Below are positions 11,157 to 55,630 of a stretch of DNA of 64,000 nucleotides, piece after piece; the stretch's first letter is position 1; every line of letters starts with the position of its first letter. This DNA comes from an uncultured Myxococcales bacterium (lineage in GTDB: Bacteria; Myxococcota_A; UBA9042; DTJE01), in NCBI GenBank assembly GCA_903847405.1, contig CAINDP010000082.1, forward strand, positions 1 through 64,000. The letters run 5' to 3'. A program made the translations under genes and the position numbers. Under the pieces are notes generated by a model, which did not search any database, was not told the origin of the DNA, and saw only the letters and a list, made by a program, of their open reading frames with translations.

Positions 11157-11250
11157 GGGAAAATGGGGACAGACACCGGGAAAATGGGGACAGACACCGA
11201 TTTCCCTGGAAATCGGTGTCTGTCCCCATTTTCCCGTCCCCATTTTCCCC
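11157..11250. repeat. Family A palindromic repeat cluster between convergent genes
   Basis: A short forward copy (11157-11177), a full forward copy (11178-11206) and an inverted copy (11208-11235) of the GGGGACAGACACC unit, plus a partial inverted tail (11236-11250). It fills the gap between the rsmH and SDR stop codons. The long hairpin could also stop transcription from both sides. Confidence 0.92.
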
Positions 11251-11254
11251 CTTC

Positions 11255-16194: not shown

Positions 16195-16382
16195 TTGGTG
16201 CCCTGCACGTGCGCCGGTGGCTGCTTGAAGCTCGAGCCGCTGGTGTTTGAAAACGGGAGTCGCCCCTACTCGCGGTGTGCAAGCCCGGTTCGACCGGGAC
16301 GCCTGATGCTTGTACTGCGACACCCCCCTGCGTCGTTTCCCGGTTCGTAGGGGCATCCCCGACGGACGCTGCAGGGCACCAA
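16195..16382. repeat. 188-base element of nested inverted repeats between convergent genes
   Basis: The 357-base gap from 16045 to 16401 holds no credible gene. It carries a perfect 13-base terminal inverted repeat, TTGGTGCCCTGCA (16195-16207) and TGCAGGGCACCAA (16370-16382). Nested inside are GCCCCTAC (16262-16269) with GTAGGGGC (16347-16354), GGTGT with ACACC (16274-16278/16320-16324), CAAGC with GCTTG, and a central CCCGG-TTCGA-CCGGG hairpin (16284-16298). A further partial end copy, TTGCAGGGCGCC, lies at 16161-16172. It looks like a MITE or a structured RNA. No target-site duplication was found. Confidence 0.7.
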
Positions 16383-29800: not shown

Positions 29801-31024
29801 ATGCTGGTTCCGGGCATCGACGTGCTGGGCGGGCAGCCCGTGAAGGCGGTTCCAGGCGGGGGGTTCGAGCCCATCGAGGGCACCGACCTGATGGACCTGG
29901 CCGCACGGCTGTCGCGGGTCGGCGAAATCACGCTGGTGGACCTGGACGCCGCCCTTGGGCTGGGGGACAACGAGGCCCTGCTGCGCCGCGTGGTCCGGCG
30001 GTACCCGTGCCGCGTGGGCGGCGGGATCCGGGACGAGGACAAGGCACGGCGGCTGCTGCGGGCCGGCGCCCGGAAGGTCGTCATCGGGACGGCCGCGTCG
30101 CGCGAGTTCCTGTCACGCCTGCCGCGCGCCCGGGTCCTGGTGGCCGTGGATGCCCTGGAAGGCGACGTCGTCACCGACGGGTGGACGCGGCACACCGGCC
30201 GCACGCCCCTCGAGGTGATGCAGATCGTGGCGCCCTACTGCTCCGGGTTTTCGTGCACGTTCGTCGAGGGTGAGGGGTCCATGGCGGGCCTGCCGCTGGA
30301 CCGCGTCCGGGAACTGCAGTCGGCCACCAACCTGCCCCTGACGGTGTCGGGCGGCGTGCAATCGGCGCGGGAAGTTCGCGAACTGGATCGGATGGGCGTC
30401 GATGTCGAGTCCGGGACGGCCCTGCGGACCGGCAGGTTCACGGCGGCCGAGGCCTTCGTGGCATGCCTGGACTTCGGTCCGACGGGGATCACGACGGTGG
30501 TGACGGACAAGGCCGGGCAGATCCTGCGCCTGGAGCAGTCCACGGCGGAAAGCCTGCGCAATTCGCTGGAAACGGGCCGGGCGTCGTTCGCCTGCCCCGA
30601 GGGGGGCCCGCCGTCCGAACACGGGGACGGCGTTCACGGGACGCGGGTTCTGCGCGCCCTGGCGGCCTGCCGTCGGGATGCCGGGGTCCTGGTGGTCGAG
30701 CCGGACGGCAACGCCTGCGCCCGGGGGATGTACTCGTGTTTCGGCGGCGGCGGCCGGGACTTCGGGCTGCAGCGGCTGCACGAGATCATCGGGGCGCGCC
30801 GTGCAGACCCCAGGCCCGGGTCGTACACCTCGTTCCTGTTCGAAAAGGAGGACCGCATCCCCCGGAAACTGACCGAGGAGATGTACGAACTGCTGACCGC
30901 CCGCAACCGCGACGACATCGCCTGGGAGGCGGCGGACGTGATCTACTTCCTGATGGCCTACCTCGTGAAGCACGACGTCGGCCTGGACGAGGTGGTCGCC
31001 GAACTTGCCGGCCGCGAGCGCTAG
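29801..31024 (+). CDS. HisA-HisI-HisE fusion protein (histidine synthesis), HisI part degenerate
   Basis: 407 residues; ATG at 29801 after GGGGGGAGGACAAG. Residues 1-225 are a HisA-type TIM barrel with both catalytic Asp positions (D7 in PGID, D117 in VAVDA) and CRVGGGIRD. Residues about 226-318 match HisI (phosphoribosyl-AMP cyclohydrolase) and keep its three zinc cysteines C290, C306 and C313 at the usual 16 and 7 spacing. However, the DCDxD metal motif reads ACRRD and the KGExSGN loop is lost. Residues about 320-407 are HisE (phosphoribosyl-ATP pyrophosphatase) with KLTEEMYELL and WEAADVIYF. HisE, HisI and HisA act in that order as steps 2-4 of histidine synthesis. No other his gene is nearby. 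Confidence 0.85.
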   Translation: MLVPGIDVLGGQPVKAVPGGGFEPIEGTDLMDLAARLSRVGEITLVDLDAALGLGDNEALLRRVVRRYPCRVGGGIRDEDKARRLLRAGARKVVIGTAASREFLSRLPRARVLVAVDALEGDVVTDGWTRHTGRTPLEVMQIVAPYCSGFSCTFVEGEGSMAGLPLDRVRELQSATNLPLTVSGGVQSAREVRELDRMGVDVESGTALRTGRFTAAEAFVACLDFGPTGITTVVTDKAGQILRLEQSTAESLRNSLETGRASFACPEGGPPSEHGDGVHGTRVLRALAACRRDAGVLVVEPDGNACARGMYSCFGGGGRDFGLQRLHEIIGARRADPRPGSYTSFLFEKEDRIPRKLTEEMYELLTARNRDDIAWEAADVIYFLMAYLVKHDVGLDEVVAELAGRER

Positions 31025-31049
31025 GAAATGGGGACAGACACCGATTTCC
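31024..31049. repeat. Family A repeat, single copy overlapping a stop codon
   Basis: GGAAAT, then the GGGGACAGACACCG loop, then ATTTCC. The first G is the last base of the stop codon of the HisA-HisI-HisE gene, and the copy lies between convergent stops. Confidence 0.9.
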
Positions 31050-31061
31050 GCGGTGCCGGTC

Positions 31062-31628: not shown

Positions 31629-31657
31629 GGGAAATGGGGACAGACACCATTTTTCCC
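31629..31657. repeat. Family A repeat, single copy upstream of the HD gene
   Basis: GGGAAAT, GGGGACAGACACC, then ATTTTTCCC. It starts about 13 bases upstream of the HD-domain start codon and so probably lies in its untranslated leader or promoter. Same orientation as the 31024 copy. Confidence 0.88.
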
Positions 31658-31698
31658 GGCGGAATGGTACAACGTTCGCCAGCGGAGCGGGGTGGATC

Positions 31699-34837: not shown

Positions 34838-34838
34838 T

Positions 34839-34900
34839 AAGTGGGACAGTCACCCTTTCTCGCGTGAGAAAGTGGGACAGTCACCCTTTTCGACAGTCAC
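34839..34900. repeat. Family A variant repeats, left side of the transposase
   Basis: AAGTGGGACAGTCACCCTT at 34839-34857 and AAAGTGGGACAGTCACCC at 34869-34886 are direct copies joined by a TTTCTC-GCGT-GAGAAA hairpin (34856-34871). A further GACAGTCAC follows at 34892. Confidence 0.9.
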
Positions 34901-35020: not shown

Positions 35021-35686
35021 ATGTCCAGAACCGCCCGCGTTGTCGTGACCGGATGCCCCCACCATGTGACCCAGCGCGGAAACTATCGCCAGCCCGTATT
35101 CGAGTGCGATGCCGACCGCTGGAGGTACCTCGATCTTCTGAACATTGCTGCGGCGGAAGGGGATATCGATGTTCTGGCGTGGTGCCTGATGGACAACCAC
35201 GTGCATCTGGTCGTTGTCCCACGGAATCCTGAGTCAATCGCCCGTTTCCTGGGCCTGGTGAACGGTCGATATGCCTGGGAGGTTCATCGGCGTTCAGGTC
35301 GCAGTGGGCATTTTTGGCAGGGGCGGTTCCATTCATGTCCCCTGGATGATTCCCACTTCCTTGCCGCAGTTCGGTACGTGGAACTCAATCCCGTTCGGGC
35401 GGGATTGGTGGCTCGTGCCTGGGACTATCCATGGTCCAGCGCGCGCGCCCACGTTCTGGGGGTGTATCCCGAACCGCTGCATAGGACGCCTCTGCTCGAA
35501 GCCGAGACACGGGACTGGAAGGCGTTCCTTGATGCCTCGTCGGGCGACGACATGGAGAGCGCTGTTCGACGATCCACGGCAGTTGGCATGCCGGCGGGGG
35601 ACACCGGATTCCGCGATCGACTGGAACAGGAACTCGGACGTCCCCTGCGAATTCGACCGCCCTGGAGGCCCCGGAAATCCGCCTGA
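35021..35686 (+). CDS. REP-associated tyrosine transposase (RAYT, Y1 transposase family)
   Basis: 221 residues; ATG at 35021 after GGAGGAAGCA. The HUH motif appears as NHVHL (H60, H62), and the catalytic tyrosine is probably Y119 in RYVELNPVRAG. The N-terminal CPHHVTQRGNYRQPVF and the WSSARAH segment are also characteristic. These single-strand nucleases act on the palindromic REP sequences that surround them and are usually single-copy, domesticated relatives of IS200/IS605 transposases. It looks intact. It is the probable agent that spread the family A repeats, which is inference from proximity. Confidence 0.93.
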   Translation: MSRTARVVVTGCPHHVTQRGNYRQPVFECDADRWRYLDLLNIAAAEGDIDVLAWCLMDNHVHLVVVPRNPESIARFLGLVNGRYAWEVHRRSGRSGHFWQGRFHSCPLDDSHFLAAVRYVELNPVRAGLVARAWDYPWSSARAHVLGVYPEPLHRTPLLEAETRDWKAFLDASSGDDMESAVRRSTAVGMPAGDTGFRDRLEQELGRPLRIRPPWRPRKSA

Positions 35687-35713
35687 GCCGACACCAGTCC
35701 CCGCGATTCCCGC

Positions 35714-35738
35714 GGAAAGGGTGACTGTCCCACTTTCC
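35714..35738. repeat. Family A variant repeat, inverted, right side of the transposase
   Basis: GGAAAG, GGTGACTGTCCCA, CTTTCC: the reverse complement of the left-side variant, with stem GGAAAG/CTTTCC instead of the GGAAAT/ATTTCC of the standard type. Confidence 0.9.
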
Positions 35739-35797: not shown

Positions 35798-35823
35798 GGA
35801 AATCGGTGTCTGTCCCCATTTTC
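35798..35823. repeat. Family A standard repeat, inverted
   Basis: GGAAATCGGTGTCTGTCCCC followed by ATTTTC. It sits in the 348-base gap 35687-36034. After it come decayed fragments (TTCCCATTGTTCC, CCCATTGTTC). The rest of the gap, 35850-36034, shows no gene and no clear promoter, only the GGAGG site for the next start. Confidence 0.88.
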
Positions 35824-36034
35824 TGTTCCCATTGTTCCGGACCCATTGTTCACTGGACATCCTCCATAACGCTGCGTTTTCGGGCGTGAACTTGGTCAAG
35901 CCGCCCTTTCTTGGCTAAGGTGTCGACTCACGTTGATGTGCCCCGTTGGGGGGATTCAAGTCCGCGCCGACATCGGGCATCCGGCTCGGTTGTCGAAAAT
36001 GACAATGAAACAACTTGTCCCTGGAGGTTCATCC

Positions 36035-39000
36035 ATGCGTTTCTCAAGGGCGATCCTGACCCTCTGTGCCGTCTTCCTGGCGATGTTGACAGTTCGGCCA
36101 GCCTCGGCCGCCCCGGTCCTCCGCCACCAGGTGGACCAGAAAGGCGACTTCAGCCTGATCGGCAATACCCTGGGCTACGACTGCGGCAGCGGATCGACCC
36201 CCGTCGTGGGCACCGTGGGCGCCTGCGGAACCAACGCCACCGACGACACGGGGATCGACATCCTGTGGAACGCGGACAGCCCTGCATCGGGCCAGGCGGT
36301 GGCGAACAACACGGTGACCGTGGCAAACAGCCGATCCACGGCGGTCCTGAAACTGCCGGCGGGCGCATCCGTGACCTACGCGCGGCTGTACTGGAGCGCC
36401 TTTCGCGCCAGCGCCGACAACGCTGCGGTGATCACGGTCCCATCGACGGGCGGCACGCAGAATGTGACCGCCGATGCGACGTGGACCGCCACCGACCCTT
36501 CGGACGGAACCCGCCAGTACTACCAGGCGACGGCGGACATCACGGCCTTCGTGCAGCAGCAGGGCCCCACGGCCTACCGGGTCAGCGGCGTGAACATGAC
36601 CTCGCCCATCAACCTGTCCGAGGAAGTGGCCTACTCGGCCTGGACGCTGGTGGTGTTCTACGCAGATTCCACGCAGCCCCTGCGCAACCTGGCAATCTTC
36701 GATGGCCTGGACATCGTGAACCAGGATGTGGACGCATCGGCGACCCTGTCGGGCTTCCAGGTCCCGGTCGCGGGCTTCGACGCCAAACTGGGCGTCATCG
36801 CGTATGAAGGCGATGGCAGCGTGACCGGCGATGCCCTCGTGTTCAATGGAAACACTCTTTCCGACGCCCAGAACCCGGCCAACAACTTCTTCAACGGCAG
36901 CCGGTCCTGGCTGGGTGCCGCGGTGACCGTGCCCGGCGATCTGCCCCAGATGAGCGGCGCCTCCAGCAGCATGCAGGGCGTGGATTTCGACGTGGTCAAC
37001 GTGACGGCCTATGTGGCAGCGGGCAGCACCTCGGCAACCATCAGCGCCACGTCCAGCCGGGACGTGTACCTCCTGGGCGCCTTCATCACGTCGGTTTCGA
37101 CCTTGAAGCCGGACCTGTCCGCCACCGACAAGACCGTCACCGACGTGAACGGCGGCACCGTGCTGATCGGCGATCCGTTGGAATACGTGGTTAGCACGAC
37201 GAACGCTGGGACGGATCCGTCCGTGGGTACGGTCCTGACGGACGTGATCCCTGCGGGCACGACCTACGTCCCCGGGTCGCTGAAGATCCTGACGGGCGCC
37301 AACGCCGGCACCAAGACCGACGCGGCGGGGGACGACCAGGGCGAGTACGTCGCCGCGACCCGCACCTTGACCGTTCGCCTGGGCACGGGCGCCAACGCGA
37401 CGCAGGGCGGCACCCTGGTCATCGGGGCCAGTACGTCGCTGTCGTTCCGGGTCACCTATGACGGCACGGTCGCGGGCACAATCACCAATCAGGCGGTCAT
37501 CCAGGGGTCAGGCCAGAACGGCGCGCCTCCTGCGGACTGGGATTCCGACGGCAACGGAACGGGCGGCGGCACGCCCCCCACCACGATCGACCCCGACACC
37601 GACGGCGACGGGATCCTGGATTCCGCGGACAACTGCCCGACCGTGGCGAACGCGACCCAGGAAGACCTGGACCAGGACGGCCAGGGCGACGCCTGCGACC
37701 TGGACATCGACGACGACGGCGTGGCGAACACCCTGGACAACTGCCCCAGGAACGCGAACCCGCTGCAGGAGGACCTGGACATCGACGACGTTGGCGACGT
37801 CTGCGATCCGGACATCGACGGTGACGGCGACCTGAACGGGACCGACTGTGCCCCGCGGAACGCGGCCGTCCATCACGGCGCCACCGAAACCTGCAACAAC
37901 GAGGACGACAACTGCAACGGGAGCGTCGATGAGGGCCTGGGCTCGGTGCCCAGCACCTGCGGCACCGGCGCCTGCGTCCGGGCCGGCGTGGTGAGTTGCG
38001 TCGGCGGCGTGTACACCGACTCCTGCGTGTCCGGCGTGCCCGGCCTTTCGGACGCGACCTGCGACGGCGTGGACGACAACTGCAACGGCAGCACCGACGA
38101 AGGCTACGTGGGGACCGCGACTGCTTGCGGGGTCGGCGCCTGCGCCCGAGTCGGCGTCCGGGTCTGCGTGAACGGCGACCTGGCGGACACCTGCAGTCCC
38201 GGCGCCCCTGCGCCCAGCGACGCGACCTGCGACGGCGTGGACGACAACTGCAACGGCCAGGCGGACGAAGGCTATGTCCCCACGGCGACCTCCTGCGGCG
38301 TGGGCGCCTGCGAACGCCAGGGCTTCATCCAGTGCGTGGCTGGTGTTCAGGTCAGCGACTGCATCGGCGGCCTTCCGGTGGCCAGCGACACGACCTGCAA
38401 CGGCGTGGACGAGGACTGCAACGGCGTGCTGGACGACGGGTACGCTCCCGTGCCCAGCAGTTGCGGCACCGGCGCCTGCGCGGCGACCGGCAGCGTGGTG
38501 TGCTTCCTGGGCGCGCCGCTGGACCTGTGCGAGCCCGGCTTCCCGGTCGCCGCGACCGACACGACCTGCGACGGCGTGGACGACGACTGCAACGGCGGCA
38601 CGGACGACGGGTATATCGCGACGCTGACCGAGTGCGGCGTGGGCGCCTGCGCGGCGGAAGGCCTGACGACCTGCGTGGCGGGCGTCGAAACGGACGGTTG
38701 CGCACCCGGCCAGCCGGCCCTGGCGGACACGACCTGCGACGGTATCGACGACGATTGCAACGAATCCGTCGACGACGGGTACGTGGCGGTGGCCAGTTCC
38801 TGCGGCACCGGCGCCTGCGCGGCGACCGCGACGGTGGTGTGCTTCTTCGGCGCGCCGCTGGACCTGTGCGAACCCGGCTTCCCGGTCGCCGCGACCGACA
38901 CGACCTGTGACGGCGTGGACGACGACTGCAACGGCGGCACCGACGACGGGTACGTCGGGACGGCAACCGCCTGCGGCACCGGCGCCTGCGCGGCGACGGG

Positions 39001-42000
39001 CGCCCTGGCCTGCGTCGGCGGCGACGTGGTGGACACGTGCGAGGCCGGAACCTTCACCAGTGACGCCAACTGCAACGGCATCGACAACGATTGCGACGGC
39101 GTGACGGACGACGAATACGTCCCGACGGAAACAGCCTGCGGCGTGGGCGCCTGCGCCCGTGCCGGAACCCTGGCCTGCCAGCAGGGCGACCTGGTGGACT
39201 CGTGCGCACCCGGCACGCCGGCCGCCGACACGACCTGCAACGGCGCGGACGAGGACTGCGACGGGACCGCGGACGACGGGTACGTCCCGACGGCCACGGC
39301 CTGTGGCGTGGGCGCCTGCGCCGCGGTGGGCGTGCTGGCCTGCACCAACGGCCTGCGGGTGGACACCTGCCTGACCGGGATCGCGGTCACGGAAACCTGC
39401 AACGGCCTGGACGACAACTGCAACGGCCGGACCGACGAGGGGTTCGTGGATACCGACGAGGACGGGCTGGCCGACTGCGTGGACCCGGACCTGGACGACG
39501 ATGACATCCCCAACGGCGACGACAACTGCCCGACGGTGGCGAACCCGGACCAGGCGGACCTGGACGAGGACGGCCTGGGCGACGCCTGCGACGACGATCT
39601 GGACGGGGACGAGGTCCCGAACGTGCAGGACAACTGCCCGCGCACGTTCAACACGGACCAGGTGGACACCGACCGCGACGGCGTCGGCGACGCCTGCACC
39701 GACGACTGGGACGGCGACGGCGTGCTGAACGGCGACGACAACTGCCCGCTGGTGGCCAACCCGGACCAGGCGGACCTGGACGACAACGGCGTGGGCGACG
39801 CCTGCGACGGCGACAAGGACGGCGACGGCATCCTGGACGGGGAGGACAACTGCCCGACCGTGGTCAACCCGGAGCAGGAGGACCAGGACGACGACGGCCT
39901 GGGCGACGCCTGCGATCCGGACCGCGATGGCGACGGGATTCCCAACGTCGAGGACAACTGCCCGACCGTGCGCAACGCAGGACAGGCCGACGGCGATCGC
40001 GACGGGATCGGCGACGCCTGCGATCCGGACCGTGACGGCGACGGCATCTTCGAGGACGGCGACGGCAGCGGGGTCCCGGGGGACCATCCCTGCGCCGCGG
40101 GCCAGGCGACGGAATGCGACGACAACTGCCCGGACACCGCGAACGCGGACCAGGCGGACCAGGACAAGGACGGCCTGGGCGACGCCTGCGACGACGACGT
40201 CGACGGCGACGGCGTGCCGAACGGCGACGACAACTGCCCGCTGGTGGCCAACCCGGACCAGGCGGATCTGGACGAAAACGGCGTCGGCGATGCCTGCGAT
40301 GGCGACAAGGACGGGGATGGCATCCCGGATGCGACGGACAACTGTCCGACCGTGAAGAACGCCGATCAGCCGGACCTGGACAAGGACGGCCTGGGCGACG
40401 CCTGCGACGACGACTGGGATGGCGACGGGATCCTGAACGACGCCGACAACTGCCCGACGGTGAAGAACGCGGACCAGGCGGACACGGACCGCGACGGCAG
40501 GGGGGATGCCTGCGACTCCGTCGACCTGCCCGACGGCGACGGGGACGGGATCCCGGACCTCTACGACAACTGCCCGACCACCGTCAACGCCGACCAGCGG
40601 GATCTGGACCGGGACGGGAAGGGCGACGCCTGCGACGACGACGTCGACGGCGACGGGGTGGCGAACGCGGCGGACAACTGCCCGTGGACCGTCAACCCGG
40701 CCCAGGTCGACACCGGGGCCAACGGCGTGGGCGACGCTTGCGACGACCGCGATGGCGACGGCGTCGGCGACCTCGACGACAACTGCCCGGACACGGCGAA
40801 TTCCAACCAGCGGGACCTGGACCTGGACCGGAAGGGCGATGTCTGCGACGACGACGCCGACGGCGACGGGGTGGCGAACGCGGTCGACAACTGCCCCTGG
40901 ACGGCCAACCGCGACCAGAAGGACACGGCGGGGACGGGCGAGGGCGATGTCTGCAGCGGCGACGTGGACGGCGACGGGGTGGCCAACGCGGCCGACAACT
41001 GCCCGAAGCTGCCCAACGCCGCACAGAAGGATCTGGACGACGACGGCGTGGGCGACCTCTGCCAGACCACGGGGGTTTCCCTGACCGGCGGCATGTGCAG
41101 CGGGTCGCCGGTGGCCCCGGCGTCGGGCATCCCCGGCGTGGCGCTGATCCTGGGCCTGCTGGCGGCGGCGTGGCTGCTGGCGCGGCGCTCCCTGCGCCCC
41201 CGGGCGGGCGTGACGGCGGCGATCCTGGTCGCGACCGTGGCCGGGGCGTTCCCGGGCGCGGCGCGTGCCCAGGAAATCAACGTGCAGTCCTTCGAGATTT
41301 CGCCCTTCCGCCAGGACCTGATCACGGTGGGCAAGGGCTTTGCCCGGGACCAGTGGGAATGGAACGTCGGCGTGATGCTGGAGTACCAGAACGACCCGCT
41401 GGTCCTGCGCAGCCTGAAGACCGGCGACGTGTTCCGCAACGTGGTCCAGGACCAGCTCAGCGCCCATGTCTTTGGCGCCGTGGCCCTGCTGCCGTTCCTG
41501 GACGTGGGCCTGGTGCTGCCGGTCATCGCCTGGCAGCGGGGCGACGGCCTGCCCGGCCAGTCGTCCCCGAAGTCGGCGGGCGTGGGCGACCTGCGCCTGC
41601 ACCTGCGCTTCATGATGTTCCAGACCGCCAACAAGCTGTTCAGTCTGTCCCTGACCCCGGTCCTGACGTTCCCTACCGGGCGCCAGATCGACCGCTACAT
41701 GGGCGCCTCCACGGTCACGATCACGCCCTGGCTGAACGCGGGCCTGGAGTGGGCCCGGGCGGGTCTGGCCCTGAACCTGGGGTACCGCCCCCTGGCCAAC
41801 GAGCGCGTGTACGACCTGACCATCGGTGACCAGTTCCTGTGGCGCCTGGGCGGCTGGGTGGGCCTGATGAAGCCCGTGCAGGGGCGCAGCAAGCTGGACC
41901 TGATCGCGGAACTGGACGGCGCCGTCAGCGTGATGGAAAAACTGGATGCGGCGAACCAGCATCCCATCGAGGTGATCGGCGCCCTGCGGTACCGGCCGAC

Positions 42001-43048
42001 CTGCAGTGTGGATCTGACGGCGGGCGCGGGCGCGGGCGTGACCCGCGGCTATGCCAGCCCCGACTATCGACTGTTCGCGGGCCTGAACGTCGGCGGGTGT
42101 CCGACGCAGGCCCCGGCGGACCGGGACAAGGACGGCATCGTCGATGCGGTGGACCGCTGCCCGGACATTCCCGAGGACAAGGACGCCTTCCAGGACGAGG
42201 ACGGCTGCCCCGACGCGGACAACGACGGGGACGGCGTCTGCGATCCGTGGGTGGTCGAAAAGGGCCTGTCGGAAACGTACAAGGGCGCCTGCCAGGGGAC
42301 CGACCAGTGCCCGGACGTGGCCGAGGACAAGGACGGCTTCCAGGATCAGGACGGCTGCCGCGATGCGGATAACGACGGGGACGGCATCTGCGACCCGTGG
42401 GTGGCCGAAAAGGGTCTGTCGGGCCAGTATCAGGGCACCTGCCGCGGCACGGACAAGTGCCCGGACGCGGCCGAGGACAAGGACGGCTTCCAGGACGAGG
42501 ACGGCTGCCCGGACGCGGACAACGACGGCGACGGGATCTGCGACCCGTGGGTGGCCGCGAAGGGCCTGTCGGACACGTACAAGGCGACCTGCCGCGGCAC
42601 GGACAAGTGCCCGGATCAGCCCGAAACGGTCAACGGCGTGGACGACGACGACGGTTGCCCGGACGCGCTGGCCCGCGTCGAGGGCAAGAAGATCATCATC
42701 CTGGACAAGATCTACTTCGACTTCGACAAGGCCACGATCCAGGCCCGCAGCCTGCCCGTGGTGGACGCCGTGCAGAAGATCCTGAAGGAGCATCCCGAAA
42801 TCACGAAGGTCCGGTGCGAGGCCCACACGGATTCCAAGGGGTCGGCGGGATACAACCAGGGCCTGTCCCAGCGGCGCGCCGCCGCGGTGGTCAAGGCGCT
42901 GGTCGATGGCGGGATCGACAAGGCGCGGCTGGCCGGCCAGGGTTTCGGCGGCTCCAGGCCGCTGGTCAAGCCTGAAAAGACCGACGAGGACCGCCAGCAG
43001 AACCGCCGCGTCGAGTTCGTGATCGTGGAGTCGGGCGAGGCCCGGTAG
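36035..43048 (+). CDS. Giant surface protein: MopE and thrombospondin type-3 repeats, sorting-signal-like segment, then an OmpA-type porin
   Basis: 2337 residues; ATG at 36035, eight bases after GGAGG. Order: signal peptide 1-25; beta domain to about 355; DUF11-like domain about 357-490; TSP3 repeats 520-606; ten MopE-type [15 protein letters not shown] modules 619-1136; TSP3 repeats ([11 protein letters not shown] type) 1149-1680. Then comes [11 protein letters not shown] with a hydrophobic helix and an arginine cluster, 1683-1724, like a C-terminal sorting signal. A second signal-peptide-like stretch ending GAARAQE follows (1726-1747), then a beta-barrel domain to about 2030, three 50-residue repeats, and an OmpA C-terminal peptidoglycan-binding domain ([33 protein letters not shown]). 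It reads as two proteins joined in frame. Confidence 0.85.
42203..42652 (+). repeat. Three tandem 150-base coding repeats
   Basis: Units start at 42203, 42353 and 42503, each encoding [17 protein letters not shown] and GTDxCPD in the same places. They form a calcium-binding, TSP3-like stalk between the beta-barrel and OmpA domains of the giant protein. The period is exactly 150 bases. Confidence 0.9.
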
Positions 43049-45077: not shown

Positions 45078-45111
45078 GGAACCCATCGCCTGCACCTGCG
45101 TGCTCGGGCGG
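45078..45111 (+). repeat. Family B element, right half only
   Basis: GGAACCCATCGCCTGCACCT and the following GCGTGCTCGGGCGG match the right half of the 72-base family B element. The left half is missing or has diverged. It lies between the divergent uvrC and diguanylate cyclase genes. Confidence 0.75.
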
Positions 45112-53151: not shown

Positions 53152-53268
53152 GGATCGACCTCCCCCGCAGTTTTCGTTCGGTGCGATGCGCTCAGCCTAC
53201 TCCAGGAAAGCGTGCGCTGTCGAGGTCGATCCGGCGGGGAAGGGGGGAAAACGCGTCTCATTGATCGG

Positions 53269-53340
53269 CCCGAGACGACTCCGGCTCCGGCGAGAGATTG
53301 CTGCGCAATCCGCTCGCCTACACCTGCGTGCTCGGGCGGC
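53269..53340 (+). repeat. Family B 72-base structured element, full copy
   Basis: It lies in the 315-base gap 53152-53466 between pepA and the sugar transferase, which is otherwise empty. Outer stem CCCGAG/CTCGGG (53269-53274/53331-53336), inner stem GGCGAG/CTCGCC, and apical hairpin GATTGC-TGC-GCAATC (53296-53310). By my count 62 of 72 positions match the reverse complement of 55527-55598. Confidence 0.8.
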
Positions 53341-53466
53341 CCCTGAAAACCGGAGAGGATCGGGAGACTATTGACAGAGGAGGCCGCCACGGCGCATCTT
53401 TGGGCGCTTGCCTGGATCCAAGGAATCGGCGGTCCGTACGGCAAGCAGTTGTCTTGAGGTAGGGCC

Positions 53467-54729
53467 ATGTCATCCATCCGGAGCCTCCTCCGCAGACCCA
53501 CCCGGCCCGATCTGCCGTGGATGCTGCCCGAGGACGAGTTCCGGCGCCTGCTGGAGCGCGAGCGCGCCCGGGCCGAGCGGAACCGACGTTCCTTCTCCGT
53601 GGTCGAACTGGAAACGGCCGCCGCTTCCGTGCCGCTGATCGTCCGGGTGCTGGACCTGCTGAAGAACCGCCGTCGCCTGACGGACGACATCGGGTGGATC
53701 CGCAAGGACGCCATCGGGGTCCTGCTGGCCGAAACCGACGGGGCCGGGGCGGCCAGCTACCTGGAGGACATCCGGAAACTGCTGGCCAAGGCGGAGTGCG
53801 CGCTTCCGGCCCGGTTGTTCGTGTACGAAGGGGACGCGTTCGACGGCGGGAACCTCGGGTTTGAACGGCGCCGCCCCGGCGAGACGCAATCGGCCTTCCG
53901 TCGCCGGGCCCAGGATCGGCAGGATCCCTCGGCGCCCCCGCCCTCGTGGCCTCCCCGGACTCCGGCGGATGGCCCGCCGCCGCCCGCGGTCCCGGCAGGG
54001 GACGGCGGGAACCGCGGCGCGATGCCCGTGCCGACCGACCGGCAGCCCGACTCCGATCCGGACGGGGAACCCCCTGCGACCTTCGGCCCGGAAGCCGGTG
54101 TGGCCGACATGCAGGACCTGTTCCAGCAGCCCCTGCCCTGGTGGAAGCGCGCGACGGACGTCGTCGGGGGGTGGCTCCTCCTGGTGGGCATTTCGCCCGT
54201 GCTGCTGCTGATCGCGGTGCTGGTGAAGGCGACCAGCCGGGGGCCGATCATCTTCCGTCAGTGGCGGGCGGGCCGCGGGGGCCAGCCGTTCCTGTTCTAC
54301 AAGTTCCGGACGATGATCGACGGCGCCGACGCCCTGAAGGAGGGACTTCGGGCGTCCAACGAGGTTTCGGGCCCGGTGTTCAAGATGCGGCGGGACCCCC
54401 GCGTGACGGCGCTGGGGCGGGTCCTGCGGCGATCCAGCCTGGACGAACTGCCCCAGTTGTGGAACGTCATCAAGGGCGACATGTCGCTGGTGGGCCCCCG
54501 TCCGCCGACCCTGGACGAGGTGCCGAAGTACCTGGACTGGCAGCGTCGCCGCCTGGACCTGACGGGCGGCATCACGGGGCTGTGGCAGGTCAGCGGCCGG
54601 AACGACGTGTCCTTCGAGGAGTGGATGCGGATGGACATCCGCTATTCGCGGACCCGGTCGCCCATGAACGACCTTCGAATCCTGCTCAGGACCATCCGCG
54701 CGGTGGTGACGGGCCGCGGCGCTTCGTAG
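53467..54729 (+). CDS. Polyprenyl-phosphate sugar transferase with an N-terminal degenerate GGDEF-like domain
   Basis: 420 residues; ATG at 53467 after GAGGTAGGGCC. Residues about 20-125 (EFRRLLERERARAERNRRSF, DDIGWIRKDAIGVLLAETD) resemble a GGDEF fold without its active site. A Pro-rich linker (about 150-215) follows, then one membrane segment about 232-255, then the bacterial sugar transferase domain with KFRTM, SLDELPQLWNVIKGDMSLVGPRP-type residues and GLWQVSGRND. These enzymes load the first sugar phosphate onto undecaprenyl phosphate for polysaccharide export. No other polysaccharide genes are adjacent. Confidence 0.9.
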   Translation: MSSIRSLLRRPTRPDLPWMLPEDEFRRLLERERARAERNRRSFSVVELETAAASVPLIVRVLDLLKNRRRLTDDIGWIRKDAIGVLLAETDGAGAASYLEDIRKLLAKAECALPARLFVYEGDAFDGGNLGFERRRPGETQSAFRRRAQDRQDPSAPPPSWPPRTPADGPPPPAVPAGDGGNRGAMPVPTDRQPDSDPDGEPPATFGPEAGVADMQDLFQQPLPWWKRATDVVGGWLLLVGISPVLLLIAVLVKATSRGPIIFRQWRAGRGGQPFLFYKFRTMIDGADALKEGLRASNEVSGPVFKMRRDPRVTALGRVLRRSSLDELPQLWNVIKGDMSLVGPRPPTLDEVPKYLDWQRRRLDLTGGITGLWQVSGRNDVSFEEWMRMDIRYSRTRSPMNDLRILLRTIRAVVTGRGAS

Positions 54730-54746
54730 ACGACGCGCCCGCCGGT

Positions 54747-55397
54747 TCAGCGGCCCGCGCGACGCCGCCGGATCACCCAGCGGACCAGCAGCGCCGCCAC
54801 CACCAGGCCCACCACGATCCAGGCGACCAGCCCGAAGGCCTGGAAGGCGGACTGGATCCGATCCAGGTTCGCGCCCAGGGCCACGCCGGCGGCCACCAGC
54901 AGGGCGTTCCACAACAGGGCGGAAATCCCGGCGAAGAACATCACCCGGCCGAACCGCATGCCCCCCATTCCCGCCGCGACGAACAGGAACGCCCGGATGC
55001 CCGGGAGGAAGCGGTTCAGGACGATGGCCACCTCGCCCCACCGGGCGAAGGCCCGGGAGGAGCGCTCGGCCCCGTCGAGTGCCTGGCGGACCAGGGAGGA
55101 TCGGGCCAGGCGGGAGGCGAACCGCGTGGGCGGCGCATCGATGTCGTTGGACCGGGCCAGCAGGACGCCCACCCGGAAGTCGATCGCCGCCCCGGCGAGG
55201 CTGCCGGCGAGGGTGGCGATGAACATCCCGGGCAGCGACAGCCCCGAGGTCACGACCAGGACCGCCCCGGCCACCGTGACCGTGTCGCCCGGAAAGGGCG
55301 GAACGATGTACTCGACCAGCGACGCCAGGGCCAGCACCAGCAGGGTGACCCCCGGGTTCGCGCCGGCCAGCAGGGAGACTGCCTCGATCAGGGACAC
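54747..55397 (-). CDS. DedA-family membrane protein
   Basis: 216 residues from a GTG at 55397, preceded by GAGGGGTAGC; an ATG at 55445 is in frame but lacks a site. VEYIVPPFPGDTVTVAGAVL matches the conserved DedA motif, with the later NRFLPGIRAFLFVAAGMGGM region containing the usual Arg and Gly residues, and about five membrane segments. DedA/SNARE-associated proteins recycle undecaprenyl phosphate or flip phospholipids. Its position beside a sugar transferase that uses polyprenyl phosphate fits that role. Confidence 0.9.
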   Translation of the reverse strand: MSLIEAVSLLAGANPGVTLLVLALASLVEYIVPPFPGDTVTVAGAVLVVTSGLSLPGMFIATLAGSLAGAAIDFRVGVLLARSNDIDAPPTRFASRLARSSLVRQALDGAERSSRAFARWGEVAIVLNRFLPGIRAFLFVAAGMGGMRFGRVMFFAGISALLWNALLVAAGVALGANLDRIQSAFQAFGLVAWIVVGLVVAALLVRWVIRRRRAGR

Positions 55398-55411
55398 GCT
55401 ACCCCTCGGAT

Positions 55412-55440
55412 TTGATTCGGTTCCCTCGACGCCGTATACT
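55412..55440 (+). promoter_or_regulatory. Promoter for the lytic transglycosylase gene
   Basis: TTGATT (55412-55417), a 17-base spacer and TATACT (55435-55440). A transcript from here would carry about 185 bases of leader that includes the whole family B region 55491-55600. Confidence 0.6.
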
Positions 55441-55490
55441 ACCATGCCTTTCCCGTTCCGGCGGGAAGGCGGAAGGACGATTCCAATTTC

Positions 55491-55600
55491 CGCCGGAGCC
55501 GGAGTCGACTCGGGCCGTTGAATGGCGCCGCCCGAGCACGGAGGCGCAGGCGATGGGTTTCCGCAGGAAACTCTCGCCGGAGCCGGAGTCGACTCGGGCC
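55491..55600 (-). repeat. Family B element in reverse orientation plus an extra end copy
   Basis: The full element occupies 55527-55598, with apical hairpin GTTTCC-TGC-GGAAAC on the minus strand. The 26-base end segment containing CCGGAGCCGGAGTCGACTCG occurs twice as direct repeats, at 55491-55516 and 55575-55600, 84 bases apart. Confidence 0.8.
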
Positions 55601-55630
55601 GGTTGATAGATCCCTGGGAACCGGGAGTGC

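Follow-up and report, generated by a model that had tools for sequence, protein, structure and literature searches.

Introduction

The RPEs of Rickettsia are dispersed palindromes which are located in frame within unrelated conserved protein genes, where they give rise to tolerated peptides (PMC10969869, PMC6649704, PMC3733652); they are about 150 bp long and those of R. conorii end in CGTC. The CGTC-tagged REPs, which include Rickettsia repeats, occur in many copies with a one-sided tag, lie in some cases within ORFs and have no associated transposase genes, and they are built from 8–9 bp stems with 4–5 nt loops and CCA-like tails and form head-to-head dimers (PMC3733652). For the myxobacterium Nannocystis exedens, dispersed hairpin-like repeats resembling retron msDNA are cited in PMC6868368.

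Here we describe a palindrome from an uncultured Myxococcales bacterium, found in a stretch of 64,000 nucleotides that is called the window below. A previous sequence-only reading of the window had pointed out a 72-base element with compensated changes in a hairpin stem and had proposed that it is either a regulatory leader or an undescribed mobile palindrome. Like the RPEs the Myxococcota element is palindromic, dispersed and found in frame in conserved genes, for which orthologues with and without the 22–28 aa exist, but it is set apart by composition, length and host, being a GC-rich and TTGRAT-tagged unit of ~82 nt. With the CGTC REPs it shares the high copy number, the one-sided tag, a sometimes intragenic position and the fact that no associated transposase was found, whereas its hairpin is much longer (24 pairs), its dimers are head-to-tail and it has no CCA tail. 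A CGTC is present in subtype B only, where it overlaps a paired stem and is not conserved. As the element works like REPs and RPEs but lacks both the tested defining tags and the transposase association, we do not class it as a member of these families and rate it as a new relative of REP-like mobile palindromes; what makes it stand out are its length, its tag and the housekeeping genes outside the Rickettsiales into which it has inserted.

Results and Discussion

Realignment of the two full copies of the window, 53269–53340 (plus strand) and 55527–55598 (minus strand), gave the same 62 identities over 72 ungapped positions that had been counted before, and the nested stems CCCGAG/CTCGGG and GGCGA/TCGCC as well as the apical 6-bp stem with its TGC loop were all found as described. 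The apical stem is GATTGC/GCAATC in one copy and GTTTCC/GGAAAC in the other, two pairs (columns 40–52 and 43–49 of our alignment A1) being altered on both sides with pairing kept. Because over a hundred relatives are present in the same genome, the match is far beyond chance. Copy 1 (subtype A, GATTGC apical stem) extends from 53261 to 53341 on the plus strand (covariance model (CM) match 53258–53344, 92.2 bits) and consists of a TTGAT tag (53261–53265), the palindrome (53268–53337) and a 3' GGC, as delimited by flank conservation over 100 copies. Its outer stem pairs GCCCGAG (53268–53274) with CTCGGGC (53331–53337; A1 columns 11–17 with 74–80), its middle stem GGCGA (53289–53293) with TCGCC (53314–53318; columns 32–36 with 57–61), and the apical hairpin GATTGC-TGC-GCAATC occupies 53296–53310 (columns 39–53). 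Copy 2 (subtype A, GTTTCC apical stem) is located at 55526–55606 on the minus strand (CM match 55523–55609, 102.4 bits) with a degenerate tag TCAAC (55602–55606) and the palindrome at 55530–55599. The half copy claimed at 45078–45111 exists and is a right half only, at 45080–45111 (plus strand; BLAST 94% over query positions 43–74), and a left-half copy at 55491–55517 (minus strand; BLAST 100% over query positions 1–27), which lies head-to-tail in tandem with copy 2, had been overlooked. All window copies lie between divergent genes as stated, and the sugar transferase (PF02397) and the SLT lytic transglycosylase were recovered among the neighbours, the diguanylate cyclase being recognised by a GGEEF motif in the ORF only. 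No Rfam family matched the 72-base element at gathering score; the sole Rfam match in the window is a 6S RNA (RF00013, 71.8 bits) at 16197–16381 (plus strand).

Conservation over 100 copies revealed a unit of ~82 nt made of an unpaired 5' TTGRAT, two free bases, the palindrome and GG followed by one or two bases, with random flanks outside of it. The palindrome comprises 24 pairs. Its bulged outer stem is followed by a 3-bp stem with a symmetric TNC/TNC internal loop on either side, by a 5-bp stem and, beyond a 2×3 internal loop, by the 6-bp apical stem, which ends in a TNC triloop. The T-N-C triplet occurs five times in the unit, each time enclosed by C and G in the consensus, and when tested for a code the five triplets showed a weak excess of identity (p ~0.01). 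In A1 97.1% of the cells are paired and seven pairs show double changes, the end pair 11–80 being seen as GC, TA, AT and CG. The covariation test that the sequence-only reading had proposed was clear, as none of 500 shuffles reached the observed score, and in a control with the partners slid by one base pairing dropped below 50%. It is this alignment that establishes the structure, since single copies reach modest z-scores (−1.6 to −3.5) when folded. As RNA, either strand folds well. The dispersed GTAG REPs (RAYT/TnpA-REP), which are processed as a folded single strand, likewise show a 5' unpaired tag and a bulged imperfect hairpin, but the tag of the Myxococcota element is TTGRAT over 100 copies, with no GTAG and no flanking RAYT in these draft genomes.

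Four of the pairs define subfamilies and the differences there are mostly compensated, showing that the hairpin itself matters. At the remaining 20 pairs of 94 distinct copies, 14 differing cells are compensated versus 131 that are not, 42 of the latter being located at the variable pair 27–66. One apical stem is intermediate between the two forms (GTTTGC/GCAAAC), which suggests successive rather than simultaneous changes at these two pairs. Compensated subfamily differences together with mostly uncompensated private ones imply that the structure is kept in multiplying lineages and decays in single copies, and such a pattern is the prediction for a mobile palindrome and the opposite of that for a per-site regulatory structure; many copies with uncompensated stem differences were also what the sequence-only reading had named as speaking against its own proposal, and a function at each site is not upheld. 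According to a rough estimate the 14 compensated private changes exceed chance; they may reflect repair templated by the hairpin, or the spread of variant copies by transposition. Hairpin-templated correction of quasi-palindromes is a known mutational process that during replication would give compensated changes without selection, and the 14 cells, isolated double changes on otherwise ordinary copies, speak for it. However, it leaves the dispersal, the tag and the mostly uncompensated private changes unaccounted for. As the explanation of the element we consider it extremely improbable, although in addition to mobility it may play a part.

When the window's own genome (5.65 Mb, 273 contigs) was searched by BLAST, many copies appeared at once. 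Using a CM built from 62 copies, we then carried out the proposed search of genome and relatives, in which up to 150 candidates per genome were scored. The window's genome gave at least 124 copies, a second Myxococcota species from its genus at least 121 and a third species of the genus one, while no copy was found in the 49 further genomes of the class in a run of 52 genomes with stricter filters; the copy totals are lower bounds. A wider spread was rejected: an exact left-half pattern matched many phyla once each in GTDB genomes, with CM E values of ~0.02 or worse that correspond to chance, and among the GTDB matches listed the genuine ones are from CAIOFV01 contigs only (an uncultured Myxococcales MAG). 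Thus, the element is a dispersed family confined to one genus of uncultured Myxococcota rather than the leader of three genes. In the window's genome and in the second species (G001, for example C135:1–84 and C31:71388–71474 of 71494) the end of a contig is no more than 150 bases away from several copies, and the repeat probably breaks short-read assemblies.

The genomic context was counted in samples of ~0.8 Mb and ~1.3 Mb using a simple codon-usage gene caller made for this analysis. About a fifth of the sampled copies, 22 of 117 full ones, are read through by a predicted gene (6/45 in the window's genome and 16/71 in the second species), and since 92% of the sampled genome is coding the copies are strongly depleted in genes, either by selection or by targeting. 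Most other copies are intergenic, with divergent, tandem and convergent shares that roughly follow the gap lengths (16, 20 and 1 copies in the window's genome for 16, 23 and 5 kb of intergenic DNA, respectively). Enrichment at divergent promoters was rejected, not being above the expectation from intergenic length, and the location of all window copies between divergent genes therefore needs no special explanation. An orientation preference is absent, with 19 of 44 copies on the same strand. A regulatory RNA leader or a protein-binding DNA hairpin, selected site by site to control the downstream gene, would agree with the intergenic window copies upstream of genes, with the good RNA folding on both strands and with the strong covariation. 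But the copies precede, follow, separate or lie within unrelated genes and do so in both orientations, they track intergenic space, their presence is species-specific and their private stem changes are mostly uncompensated, so that we regard such a role as very improbable and the leader suggested earlier is not supported. The other suggestion, the undescribed mobile palindrome, is supported by the high copy number in one genus, tandem pairs, lineage-specific insertions with clean empty sites and intragenic insertions.

Comparing the window's genome with the second species we identified about a dozen loci that are occupied in one species and empty in the other. At the clearest of them (copies 14, 32 and 80) the inserted block includes the tag, there is no target duplication and the empty site is without the tag, and no shared target motif is evident at the empty sites; since the flanks are 80–90% identical between the species, a target duplication of very few bases might go unnoticed at some sites. 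For ISDra2, TTGAT is a pre-existing target. This possibility was rejected for the Myxococcota element, whose tag is part of the insert because the clearest empty sites lack TTGAT. The best in-frame inserts are 81–84 nt long and the copies, which often stand in head-to-tail tandem, then repeat at 81–86 nt, both being consistent with one unit. A MITE of the classical type, whose terminal inverted repeats are acted on by a DDE transposase, would also be short and palindromic with many copies and no gene of its own, and ERIC, Correia and RUP resemble the element further in being non-autonomous and mostly intergenic. Empty sites without target-site duplication, the conserved one-sided tag outside the palindrome and a composition that is not AT-rich nevertheless distinguish the Myxococcota element, and we regard this origin as highly improbable.

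In-frame insertion is supported by orthologues without insert for a DnaE-type polymerase (28 aa), a LuxE-like synthetase and an aminotransferase-HAD protein (27 aa each) and a TgpA-type protein (~22 aa net). In the second species LigA, RecD2 and a TonB receptor possess read-through copies between or within Pfam domains, and a further gene carries a whole copy in one species and apparently a remnant in the other. The 22–28 inserted residues are hydrophilic, and a repeat-derived peptide such as GDGFPQETLAGAG is predicted in the polymerase or LigA. Of 11 antisense read-throughs 10 share one frame (PPEHAGAGDGFPQETLAGAGVDSGR), and of 11 sense read-throughs 9 share another (RPESTPAPARVSCGNPSPAPACSG). 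The frame is thus not random, although every antisense frame of the consensus is open, and this suggests selection for soluble, linker-like peptides.

No transposase was present among the 25 commonest of 152 families from 106 proteins neighbouring the copies, the families shown being ordinary, and no linked transposase was found among neighbours or between close copies in these fragmented assemblies. IS110, found as a single copy in the window's genome only, and TnpB, of which none was found, were rejected as mobilisers. One Y1 transposase is present in the window's genome, inside the window and flanked by a different repeat, and none was detected in the draft genome of the second species; as this sole Y1 gene goes with another repeat family, a RAYT link was rejected too. 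Together with the repeats on either side of it (GTGACTGTCCCACTTTC, at 34838–34893 and 35713–35737) the gene (Y1_Tnp of the REP-associated type, 221 aa, 35021–35686, plus strand) makes up a REPtron that is separate from the 72-base family. Another dispersed repeat, GGTGTCTGTCCCCATTTTCC, occurs in the window at 20–107, 11158–11251, 31023–31053, 31629–31659 and 35798–35841 and shows ~201 matches genome-wide versus 0 in a reversed control, often as inverted pairs; as it resembles the repeats flanking the Y1 gene, it is probably the REP family of this transposase. The window also contains an ORF of 2371 aa (35933–43048, plus strand) with thrombospondin type-3-like D-x-D-x-D and Cys-rich repeats, an OmpA-like C-terminal end and, at the DNA level, strong internal repeats (108 and 168 nt).

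The palindrome might also be a retro-element product, i.e. a hairpin RNA or msDNA that was copied and inserted as proposed for the msDNA-like repeats of N. exedens. A myxobacterial precedent with dispersed hairpin-like repeats, likened here by description, is cited in PMC6868368, and insertion without target duplication would fit. Yet neither a retron nor any reverse transcriptase was found in the window's genome and only one fragment in the second species, whereas five are found in the third species with its single copy, and the element is unmatched around them; a retron origin was rejected on these grounds and we consider a retro-element product extremely improbable.

The element is therefore likely to be a non-autonomous mobile palindrome of ~82 nt belonging to one uncultured Myxococcota genus, its hairpin presumably being recognised in trans and its copies then decaying or being tolerated. 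The unpaired tag on one side, the bulged hairpin, the missing target duplication and the compensated subfamilies resemble HUH substrates, so that recognition by an enzyme working on the folded single strand in the manner of TnpA-REP or IS200/IS605 transposases appears to be the most likely route, with perhaps an even chance of being correct. It would explain the tag, the lack of duplication and the compensated subfamily differences as well as the occurrence of units in tandem. Copies mostly persist between genes, and inside a gene they persist as read-through inserts; any regulatory role at particular sites would be incidental. It is possible that the mobiliser was lost, is unassembled or is of another class, and as both assemblies are draft MAGs in which many copies sit close to the end of a contig, a transposase with copies on its flanks could be absent from them. 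That a selfish hairpin has spread without Y1 (HUH), DDE or RT machinery, repeatedly donating in-frame peptides to LigA, RecD2 and a DnaE-type polymerase outside the Rickettsiales, seems rather unlikely to us.

Conclusion

Protein-coding selfish palindromes are known chiefly from the obligate intracellular Rickettsiales, for which weak selection is an easy explanation. The same behaviour is now seen in a large-genome member of the Myxococcota, where two species provide empty sites, insert limits and orthologues with and without insert. For annotation this means that 22–28 residues inserted into a protein of this group, such as PPEHAGAGDGFPQETLAGAGVDSGR, derive from the repeat. The CGTC REPs pose the same mobiliser puzzle as the Myxococcota palindrome, and with the two species it becomes testable what mobilises palindromes without a transposase and how proteins tolerate such inserts.
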